Of a stretch of 64,000 nucleotides of DNA, positions 10,618-15,813 are shown piece by piece (position 1 is the first letter of the stretch; every line of letters starts with the position of its first letter). The position numbers were made by a program, and so were the translations under genes. The DNA comes from Polytrichum commune (lineage: Eukaryota; Streptophyta; Polytrichopsida; Polytrichales; Polytrichaceae): contig OX485804.1 of assembly GCA_950295325.1 (NCBI GenBank), forward strand, positions 55,616,001-55,680,000, given 5' to 3'. The notes under the pieces were generated by a model. The model did no database searches and had not been told where the DNA came from. It was given only the letters and a program-made list of their open reading frames with translations.

Positions 10618-13600
10618 TCACATGTCTTCAACATCTCCTGAAACTTTGAGTGGAGGAAGTAAAACATAGCCACTGCAGCGAGACTTTCCAAGTTCTCCTA
10701 ACTCTTGAGCTCGTGACGATACTGAGCTTCCACAATGCCTTGGCTGCAACATGCCCCATAAATAGTTATTGGGTATAGTACATTATATGACAAAGAGACT
10801 GGATATCTTTTCAAATAACGTCTTCACTGAGTAAAGTTATGAAGATGAAGTCATTAAAGTGCCTTGTACATTGAAGTTACTTCAACATTAGTACACTAAA
10901 TAGTCCTATTAGTGTAGGTCAAATATTATTGTGCAAATAATTAATGTGGACCACACTAATTGTCTTGTCATGGTGGAAGTAATGTGGGCCAAAGACCCTG
11001 GTCTTCCCTGAGTCTTTCTGAGACTTCCAAGCAGCTCCTTATGTATTAGTTCAGGACAAAAGTACCATAAAATAAAACAGTCACCCCAATCGATTTCCTA
11101 GAAAAGAAAATTAATGTGGGCCACTGATTTTAAAGTAGAGATTGGTGTGGGTTGAACATTAACATGGGTTCTAAAGTGTGGCCCACACTAAATAGGACGC
11201 TTTACCAGTATGGAGTTGCATAATACACAAGTCCAATCACTTTATTTGTTAATTTCTTGCAAACCCTTCCAGACATCCTTTCATGAATGAGAATTTGGGA
11301 ATTCAAAAATAGGAGAAAACTTCAAAATATTCACTGACTCCCCAAAACTTTCAAATAAAGCATATATATTTTAGAGAGGCATTTAAAGCTTGTCAAAGTT
11401 AACCTCGACTAGAGTAGTAACTCGATGGGTCACTTGGGCACTTAAAGATTAACAATGCCATGTGGGACCTTGATTAGTCTTACAAATAAGCGTGCAGCTT
11501 CATAAGATTTGCATAGCAGCATATAAAAGGGTATAGGTTATCAAGAGGCATCTCATTACCTTGAAAGTCTTGTCAAAGCAAACATATATTTCTTTGATTT
11601 GCTTGGCTTGACAGACAATCGTTGGTTTGAAACCAGTATGTTTCCGAATTGCTGCTTCCATGCTGGTTACTTTGTACCTTGTCTTGCTGTGAGGAACAAT
11701 GCCAGCTTCGGATAGCATTTCCTGTTCCAGTCAACAATTCCCACCCTCACTCTCTAGCAGACAATAATTGATCAAGTGAAATAGAAGGTTGCAACAACAT
11801 TAAATCACAAGTAGCACGTAGTGGGGTGATGTAGCTCCTCAGCTAAAAAGGTACAAAACTAAGGTAAACATCATTGAGAGCAAGGAAAACATGAATACCA
11901 GTAAATCATATTTCTGGTTAAGAAGAAGCCCTATTTGGAAGAATGCAGCCTCATCAATAATTGTTGGATAGGCACATGTCCCATGCTTCTCTGCAAATTC
12001 ACAAACCACAGTTGGTACAGAGGGTAGAATCTTCGAGGCAACTACGATCAGTACTTAAAATCAATTCCTGGACAATACCTAGGTTTACAAGAAAATTTGT
12101 AGTGATCATTGGCACAGTTCCCCTTTTAAGCATATATTGTCTTATACAAACTGTAGTATGTCTGATGGAGAAAACCATGCCAGTGGAAGTTAATACTCAC
12201 CCCACTACAATAAGCAGAAGATTGAACATTAACAGTTCAGCAGCAGCAAGCCACATCCAACAAACAACCCAACCAATCGAAACATCACATGAGTTAAAAG
12301 TAAGAAAAGTTTTATGAAAATCCACAATCAAAGAATCTGCACGAACTTGCCACCCCTTAACACTAGGAAGTGTTCAATTATGTCACTAGAAAGGGTTCAA
12401 GATGCACATTTTATTATGGTCTTAAGTGAGCTTGTGGGTAGCCACAGTAGATGTAACAAAATAAACATTTGGGACCTTCAAAAAGTAAGTGTATATACAC
12501 AAGGGATTTCACAATTGGAAAAGTGAATGCTGACACATTGGAAGATATACACAAGCACGATTTTCTTTTCTGCTAGGGCTTCCGGTTGAAGGGACACTGC
12601 AAGTGCTGAACTACTAACCTCATGCTGCCAGAAATTGCCAGTCACCTTTCCATTACACTGCCTTGGTGGTGAGCAGTAAAGGGTTGGCCAGTACTTTTGG
12701 AGGTCATCTGCAAGATCCTCAACCTAAAAAAACAACAGCAATTACTGAGTCTGTAATTTTGTTGCTACCTATGCAAATTTTGAGACACATTGGAGTCATG
12801 TACACATCCAGTTCCATGAACAGCTATAAACCTTCAGCTGTACAAAAACTCATGCATGAAATTCATGAGCAATACCATACTATCAGGTCTAATAGGGCAC
12901 GTCTCTACCAAATTCAATTTCCAAATCATCTTTTAAGATTTTTCCAACCACTTATATGATGACATGTGGCACTCTTGGGTCCAAAATAATTAATCTATTC
13001 CTAATTGACCTGCTCATAGGATACTTCCCCATTTTAAGCACACTGCTCCAAGGATAGGTATGCAAAATACCAGTACCTTTGTCATGTTGAAGGCCGGCCC
13101 ATCACAACATTCTGGCCAGGACCCATCATTGAACTCGGGCCACACACCATCTGCCATAGGTAGTGTCCACCAGTATTAATCACCACACAACACATGATTG
13201 AATGCAGAGAAGTGCAAAAATTCACGATTATTTACGACTATAAGTCATTTTGCATTGCACCAAGCTATCAAGAAAATGGACGCAGGTAGCACATGCTTAC
13301 GGATAGAGAACTTCACTGGCTCCTTCAAACTGCATGAACAAATGCCCACGAAAATTGTCCTCAATGTCCATTCACAATCTTCTAACCACATTTTGAGGGG
13401 ATTCCAGAATTTCAGGTCTATGGAAGCAATCAGAAACAAGAGGAATAAACACGAGCATCTGTAATTCAGTTGCATGATGGAGATGACAGATATTTATTAG
13501 GTGAACAATCTGAGCACTCTCTGTAGAAACAGATGAATTTACCGTTGACAACAGCTGGCCTTCGACTCGCAATATGTTCCCGGCCATTCTTGTGAGAACA

Positions 13601-15813
13601 CGAAATAGTCAAATTTGAGTGCTGATAGCTCTGTGGAAGAACGTCCCAAATTAGGTCAGATTTCACAACATTTCCACACATTTCCAAAGGTTCATAATTT
13701 CCCTCGTGATGTAGAGCTGGGAGGAACGAACTCCCATGTGCAAAGAAGACTCACGTTGGAGCAAGTTCACAGAGATCCCCCGACAATCATTCAAGTCCAG
13801 TGAGGAGGTATGTATGACCTTTTGCAGACCAAGATTTCACTCAAAATCACACCCTATTGTCTGTTTTCTACACTGAAAGCAAAATTCTCAAGCAGTGTGC
13901 AACCATTTAGAGTGCCAGGAAGTGATTGGCATTCTAAACATATCACTTACTGGCAACATCACTCAAAAATAGGTCACATTTCACAACATTTCCACACGAT
14001 TCCTAAGTTTCGTAGTTTCCCTCATGATGTAGAGCTGGAGCTGGGACCGGCGAACTCCCATGTCCGAAGGAGACCACATTGCAGCAAGTTCAGGGCTCCC
14101 TCAACAATCATTCACAAGTCCAATGAGAAGGAAGCATGTACGACCTTTCGCAGATGAAGCACTCTCAAAAACTCATACCCTCAAGGAATGTTACAGTAGG
14201 GACGGAGAAACCTTCATATCTCCAGGCATATCACTCATAAGCAACACTACCCCTGAGCAAGCTGCCCGGTTTAAAAGAGGTCAAATTTCACAACAATATC
14301 ATACAGTGCTTCGAACCGAGAAAGATTCACATCTCCAAGCATATCACTCACCAGTGATATTATCACTGAGCAAGACGTCCAGCTCAAAATAGGTCAATTC
14401 TCACAACATTTCCTCAGAGTCCTGGGTATTGTAGTTCCCCTCATGACGTAGAGCTGGGAATGGTGACCTCCCATGTCCAAAGAAGACTAAATTGCAGCAG
14501 CTTCACAAACTGAGCTCCCTCAACAATCATTCAAGTCCAATGAGAAGAAGGCATGTATGACCTTTCACAGATGAACCACTCAAACCACCAAACCATAACA
14601 TAACGTTCATCTTCTATGCAAAAAGCCCAAGTTCTCAAGCAAGGTTACAGGGCCAGGAACCGAGAAACATTTTATCTCCAAGCATATCATTTACCAGCAA
14701 CATTACGCCTGAGCAACACGGCCAGCCCAAAAGAGGTCAAATTCACAACATTTTCTAGGTTTTGTAGTTTTTCTCCTGATGTAGAGCTGGGAATGGTGAC
14801 CTCCCATGTCCGAACAAGCCCACATTGCAGCAAGCTCATAGACAAGGCTCCTCAACAATCATTCAATTCCAGTGAAAAGGAGGCATGGCATGATGTATGT
14901 TCTTTCGCAAATTAAGCACACACAGAGATCATACACCGACCATCTGCTTCCTACGCAGAAAGCCCAAAATCTCAAGCAATATCATACAGCGCTTGGCACC
15001 AAGAAACATTCGCATCTCCAAGCATATCACTCACCAGCAACATTGCCCCTGAGCAAGCTCTCCGGCTCAAAATAGGTCAAATTTCACAACATTTCCACAT
15101 AATTCTTAGGTTTTGTAATTTCGCTAGTGATCCAGAGCGCGGACCAGTGACCTCCCATGTCCGAAGAAGACCACACTGCAGAAAGTTCAGAGACAGAGTT
15201 CCCTCAACAATCATCCAAGTCCAATAAGAAGAAGCCATGCATGACATTTCGCAAATCAAGCACTCAGAAAACAAGCATTCCCTAACGTCTGCTTCCTACA
15301 AAGAAAGCCCAAATTGCCAAGCAGTGTTACAGAGCAGGGATTCACCTTCATATCTCCAAGCATAACACCCACTAGCAACATTACCAATGAGCAAGCTGCC
15401 CGCTCAAAATAAGTCGAATTTCACAACATTTCCACACAGTTCTTAGGTTTGTAATTTCGCTAATGATGCAGAGCCAGGAACGGCGACCTCCCATGTCCGA
15501 AGCCCACATTGCAGCAAGTTCAGACAGCGCTCCCTCGACAAGCATTCCAAGTCCAATGAAAGAGAGGCATGTACCTATGATCTATTGCACATGAAGCACT
15601 CACAAACAATCATCACAGACCATACCCCCTACCGTCCTCCCTACGCAGAAAGCCCAAATTCTCAAACATTGTTAACCGAGAAACATATATGCAAGCATCA
15701 TCATATCACTCACCAGCGACATAACCCCTGAGCAAGCCATCCGGCCCACCGTTACAGCATCCCAGCAACGTGGTCGCCAGCAAAAGCCCACAAATCAGCT
15801 TCGCACCAGCCAT
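10618..15813 (-). CDS. RNS2: RNase T2, class II S-like (RNS2-like), nine exons
   Basis: Predicted secreted or vacuolar RNase T2, which cleaves RNA through a 2',3'-cyclic phosphate intermediate and in plants serves rRNA turnover. Exons in order: 15714-15813, 13543-13630, 13301-13329, 13077-13150, 12619-12723, 12201-12204, 11899-11990, 11560-11721, 10618-10743. All have GT-AG borders and consistent phases, giving 260 codons (259 aa), the length I recall for RNS2-type enzymes. Residues about 1-22 form a hydrophobic signal peptide (MAGAKLICGLLLATTLL). Then come FDYFVFSQEWPGTYC, active-site motif CAS I (FSIHGVWPEFNDGSWPECC), NFWQHEWEKHGTC (CAS II) and the C-terminal EIYVCFDK. Both catalytic histidines are present. 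The last exon adds a 41-aa tail as in vacuolar class II enzymes. Intron 1 is a tandem array (separate entry). Confidence 0.93.
10744..11559 (-). repeat. Repeat-bearing intron 8 of the RNase T2 gene
   Basis: This 816-bp intron contains repeated pieces such as gtgggcc and gtgtggcccacac, and the pair cactaaatagtcctattagtgt (about 10903) and cccacactaaataggac (about 11184). It looks like an old MITE-type insertion. Exact ends and a target duplication were not resolved. Confidence 0.4.
12201..12204 (-). other. RNS2: 4-nt microexon (TGGG) of the RNase T2 gene
   Basis: Minus-strand context is a pyrimidine-rich tract ending ttattgtag, then TGGG, then gtgagtatt, a consensus donor. The upstream exon ends CAT GAG (H-E) in phase 0, and the downstream exon begins AG AAG CAT GGG ACA TGT. 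Without these four bases the join is out of frame and lacks the family's tryptophan. With them the join reads H-E-W-E-K-H-G-T-C, the exact CAS II signature of RNase T2 enzymes. Frame rescue and motif completion together make this a strong prediction. Transcript evidence would settle it. Confidence 0.85.
13631..15713 (-). repeat. Tandem array filling RNase T2 intron 1
   Basis: Intron 1 (2083 bp) consists of about six diverged tandem units of roughly 335-345 bp. Marker positions on the plus strand for the tatcactcaccagc-like segment are about 13945, 14229, 14341, 14687, 15026 and 15361, with the true exon 1 end at about 15704. Each unit repeats the last 30-40 bases of exon 1 plus its donor. Several keep a sequence matching the real donor (GCTG followed by GTGAGTGATATG on the minus strand), notably those at 14341 and 15026. 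A further shared block (ggtcaaatttcacaacatttcc on the plus strand) marks each unit. Open frames inside the array are by-products. Confidence 0.85.

Follow-up and report, generated by a model that had tools for sequence, protein, structure and literature searches.

RESULTS

The window analyzed here is a 64,000-nucleotide stretch of the Polytrichum commune genome (C2:55616001-55680000; the genome comprises 407.8 Mb in 64 contigs). On its minus strand, between positions 15813 and 10618, we modeled exon by exon an RNS2-like RNase T2 gene with nine exons, all of them open, and eight introns, all of them GT-AG. The protein encoded by this model, 247 amino acids long, matches the RNase T2 profile PF00445 from end to end (1-188 of 188 profile positions) at 170.8 bits, with a cut-off of 26 bits, and holds both FSIHGVWP (CAS I) and HEWEKHGTC (CAS II), the two motifs that presumably supply the catalytic His, Glu, Lys, and His residues. 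The full profile match and the presence of both CAS motifs place the gene in the RNase T2 family, in line with an earlier note on this DNA, which had recognized an RNase T2 of the RNS2 kind.

Exon 1 (15750 to 15813, 64 nt) supplies the ATG and what looks like the start of a signal peptide. Its end is marked by one of two donors of the same phase (window 15714-15750), namely, ACG|GTGGGC, which is used in the 247-residue model, and the stronger CTG|GTGAGT after 15714, which would lengthen the exon to 100 nt and the product to 259 residues. Exon 2 (13543 to 13630, 88 nt) carries ELSALKFDYFVFSQEWPGTYCESKASCCQ and is followed by exon 3 (13301 to 13329), only 29 nt long, whose donor TCC|GTAAGC scores lowest in the gene when judged with a donor table based on the general plant consensus. 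Intron 3 splits the CAS I histidine codon (C|AT; 13301-13329/13150), the remainder of the motif being encoded at the start of exon 4 (13077 to 13150, 74 nt), which runs through FNMTK. Exon 5 (12619 to 12723, 105 nt) ends with FWQHE, in phase 0, at the donor GAG|GTTAGT. Downstream of the 4-nt exon 6 (12201 to 12204) lie exon 7 (11899 to 11990, 92 nt), exon 8 (11560 to 11721, 162 nt), and the coding portion of exon 9 (10618 to 10743), which ends at a TGA stop codon. With the CAS I histidine codon split behind a 29-nt exon and a 4-nt exon within CAS II, both catalytic motifs rely on very short exons.

Exon 6 consists of the letters TGGG (minus strand, 12204-12201), flanked by TTATTGTAG and GTGAGT, with CAATCTTCTGCTTATTGTAG as its 5' neighbor and GTGAGTATTAAC as its 3' neighbor on the same strand. 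These four bases provide the tryptophan codon and the first base of the following glutamate codon, whereas exon 7 begins AG|AAG and thus contributes the rest of this codon and then KHGTC. Joining 12723-12619, 12204-12201, and 11990-11899 yields ...GNFWQHEWEKHGTCAYPTI..., and the protein that includes the TGGG exon reads FWQHEWEKHGTC. The earlier note had reported such an exon, bounded by a pyrimidine-rich acceptor and a GTGAGT donor, and its position, letters, and splice signals proved exact. Being internal and in frame, with putative splice signals on both sides, the exon would qualify as a plant microexon (≤15 nt). In the table of donors, which is not trained on this genome and is read here for rank order only, GTGAGT ranks second among the 52 GTs of the interval, directly after the donor of exon 5. 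The acceptor, with 12 pyrimidines among 17 positions, shares the maximum with two others among the 24 AGs scanned. Intron 5, upstream of the microexon (12205 to 12618, 414 nt), contains 37% T, and intron 6, downstream of it (11991 to 12200, 210 nt), contains 34% T; T-rich introns are the usual state in plants.

We listed the possible joins between exons 5 and 7 in two ranges: single GT-AG introns of at least 60 nt, whose donors start 60 nt within exon 5 and whose acceptors extend at most 30 nt into exon 7, and cassette exons of 1 to 60 nt between the normal outer splice sites. Within these ranges, 39 joins are open, 35 with a single intron and 4 with a cassette, TGGG among the latter. The sequence HEWxKHG is restored by just one of the 39, the TGGG join (the four cassettes were judged by eye from their peptides), and every other listed join loses or alters CAS II. 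Hence, the claim that TGGG completes CAS II holds, whereas describing it as the single frame-preserving join was too strong, since the 35 single-intron joins and the three other cassettes are open as well. The best single-intron candidates, with donors 4 and 7 nt downstream of that of exon 5, were rejected at 163.7 and 157.3 bits, respectively, compared to 170.8 bits with the microexon. Likewise, the statement that skipping TGGG shifts the frame is right for the normal acceptor, where the product is cut to 139 residues with a truncated PF00445 match of 73.4 bits, but does not apply to two other joins, both in frame: skipping TGGG with an acceptor 2 nt downstream (a CAG|AG site), which gives HEKHGTC at 155.9 bits, and the donor at +4 without the microexon, which gives HEVKKHGTC, in which the spacing of H, E, K, and H is kept and Trp is replaced by Val. 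At the level of the transcript, the microexon model would read CATGAG-TGGG-AGAAGC, and the rival joins would read CATGAG-AGAAGC, CATGAG-AAGCAT, or CATGAGGTTA-AGAAGC. The frequency with which such a string arises by chance was estimated from 2,000 dinucleotide shuffles of the 628-nt interval between exons 5 and 7, with 60 nt trimmed at each end: AG|TGGN|GT appeared in 69 shuffles and the stronger pattern YAG|TGGN|GTRAG in none.

Searching proteins of solved structure returned 16 distinct PDB sequences at an E value of ≤0.001, of which the best five are 1jy5, 1iyb, 1dix, 1sgl, and 1vcz; some of these we take to be of plant origin, the named ones all being plant proteins. Among these best 5 of 16, CAS II reads HEWEKHGTC in 1iyb and 1dix, HEWLKHGTC in 1vcz, YEWAKHGTC in 1jy5, and QQYEKHGTC in 1sgl; because of the last, tryptophan at this place is to be seen as usual rather than invariant. 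In this genome, PF00445 finds at least five matches at three places, which are the RNS2-like gene, C1:14.73 Mb, and C5:22.36 Mb. Both paralogues have an uninterrupted CAS II within one open stretch and therefore lack the TGGG microexon, an absence that says nothing about the age of the microexon in class II. The C1 paralogue has an intron (AACACG|GTATGT...TTGCAG|GTGGCC) whose place and phase 0 are those of intron 4 of the RNS2-like gene (PFSPNT|VADVV and FNMTK|VEDL, respectively). In the C5 paralogue (L007, 2994 onward), CAS II reads FYEYQWRKHGSC, with YQ replacing HE, and its product may be inactive, given this replacement.

DISCUSSION

In this study, we described a gene that very probably encodes a class II RNase T2 of the RNS2 type, a housekeeping enzyme of RNA recycling, with nine exons of which the sixth is a constitutively spliced microexon of 4 nt. 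TGGG would normally and constitutively be part of the mRNA, and its inclusion would rest on good flanking splice sites rather than on regulation: the acceptor behind its pyrimidine tract, the GTGAGT donor, and the T-rich introns on both sides would all serve constitutive inclusion. We infer that the gene belongs to class II. According to a 2017 survey of plant T2 genes (PMC5598434), each of the 46 class II genes examined there carries eight introns, at positions 3 to 8, 10, and 11; position 5 is common to all classes, and positions 6 and 7, which lie between 5 and 8, are specific to class II. Our model likewise has eight introns, one of them, in phase 0, at the shared position 5, if intron 4 is equated with this position through its match in the C1 paralogue. 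Two introns, 5 and 6, surround the microexon between this intron and the next one of phase 0, and they would fall where the text of the survey puts positions 6 and 7. Introns 2, 7, and 8 can be paired by phase with the published positions 3 (+2), 8 (0), and 10 (0), but the outer introns differ from the survey's text, with three instead of two before position 5 and one instead of two after position 8.

A 4-nt exon in a gene of this type is already on record in Arabidopsis. In a gene-prediction paper from 2005 (PMC550657), the sole paper that we found on a 4-nt exon in RNS2, the note to Table 1 lists such an exon in ESTs of At2g39780, which GeneSeqer and sim4 miss with default options; the note calls the exon "not involved in AS" and gives neither its position nor its letters. 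At2g39780 is named Ribonuclease 2, RNS2, in passages of two other papers. The two cases are thus alike in the kind of enzyme and in having an exon of 4 nt, which is supported by ESTs in Arabidopsis and read from DNA alone here. The Arabidopsis exon presumably sits at the equivalent place, and the class II genes have probably inherited the microexon from a common ancestor; its conservation across class II is likely.

The first alternative to constitutive splicing is that the microexon is included in only part of the transcripts and acts as an on/off switch, so that skipping to the normal acceptor would produce a truncated protein and skipping to the AG at +2 a full-length protein without the W-E of CAS II. 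The CAG|AG acceptor does permit the in-frame HEKHGTC form beside the 139-residue product of a plain skip, and alternative splicing of coding microexons can occur in plants, as reported in PMC8831610. Against this, we see no hint of regulation in the sequence, and the sole published statement that we found, the table note on Arabidopsis RNS2 in PMC550657, says the opposite. On balance, a switch appears very unlikely, and its use to make a full-length but catalytically dead HEKHGTC form of RNS2 through regulated inclusion of TGGG is less likely still, although such an isoform, if real, would amount to control of rRNA turnover at the level of splicing. The on/off role of TGGG is therefore unsupported, and so is the suggestion in the earlier note that the splicing of four bases decides whether an active enzyme is made, given how the Arabidopsis exon is described.

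A second alternative dispenses with the microexon and joins exons 5 and 7 across a single intron, from a donor at 12614 (TTA|GTAGTT) to the normal acceptor. This join is open and in frame, has a full Pfam match, and retains the spacing of the catalytic residues in HEVKKHGTC. Yet it scores 7 bits below the microexon model, and its donor ranks 25th of 52, with a score of 0.6 in the donor table, where the donor that lies four bases upstream of it reaches 9.47. Moreover, valine at the place of tryptophan is absent from the best 5 of the 16 PDB matches, as aligned here, and YAG|TGGG|GTGAGT would have to be a coincidence. We regard this reading as extremely improbable. The same holds for a decaying gene in which TGGG is a chance string between an AG and a GT: the loose pattern does recur among the shuffles, but a chance string is unlikely because the stronger pattern never does and TGGG alone among the 39 listed joins restores HEWxKHG, and a pseudogene is unlikely because all nine exons are open, the introns are GT-AG, and both motifs, with their histidines, are intact.

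Comparable exons have been described for other plant genes. Conserved plant microexons span 1 to 15 nt and include a size-4 cluster in RECQ3, and coding ones mostly have a PSI above 0.5, according to PMC8831610. As described there and in MEPDB (PMC12409088), such exons are, like TGGG, tiny and coding and make a protein motif complete, and the main texts of these two papers name neither ribonuclease nor RNS2. APC11 has a constitutive plant exon of 1 nt (PMC4674806), similar to TGGG in being tiny and, as we propose, constitutive, but different in gene and size. This also qualifies the remark in the earlier note that four bases are near the lower limit for exons: four bases are indeed few, but the limit lies lower. 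With the phenomenon itself known from the Arabidopsis entry in PMC550657, the value of the present case lies in annotation. Gene finders that miss the 4-nt exon would annotate the RNase as truncated or as damaged in its active site, and the microexon therefore matters for the correct annotation of RNS2-type genes. If it is conserved across class II, a tiny exon would have been kept because it encodes residues of the active site.

At the other end of the gene, exon 1 and the beginning of intron 1 form a block of 521 bp (15891-15371, minus strand) that is 98.5 to 98.7% identical to segments of five copies of a dispersed repeat (C3:24.1, C2:51.1, C2:54.0, C1:9.6, and C1:63.3 Mb). Over the stretches fetched, these five copies have at least 4 kb in common at 97.9 to 99.9% identity, with one start, TCGAGGAGGAGG, and different flanks. 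Two of them were traced to their far end; they are about 4.8 kb long, 99.8% identical, and end in GTGGCTCGT, preceded by a GC-rich, palindrome-like stretch. TTTCTCT flanks one of the two traced copies on both sides and the other has no such match, so a target duplication is not consistent. These sequences suggest that a transposon captured the RNS2 signal-peptide exon and multiplied; the simplest reading of the repeat is a nonautonomous element, perhaps a Helitron-like one. Within intron 1 lies a diverged tandem array (window 14294-15573; period 333, 3.8 copies, 73% matches) that is related to the 521-bp stretch and the start of intron 1, and because of this array, the capture would have run from the gene to the element.
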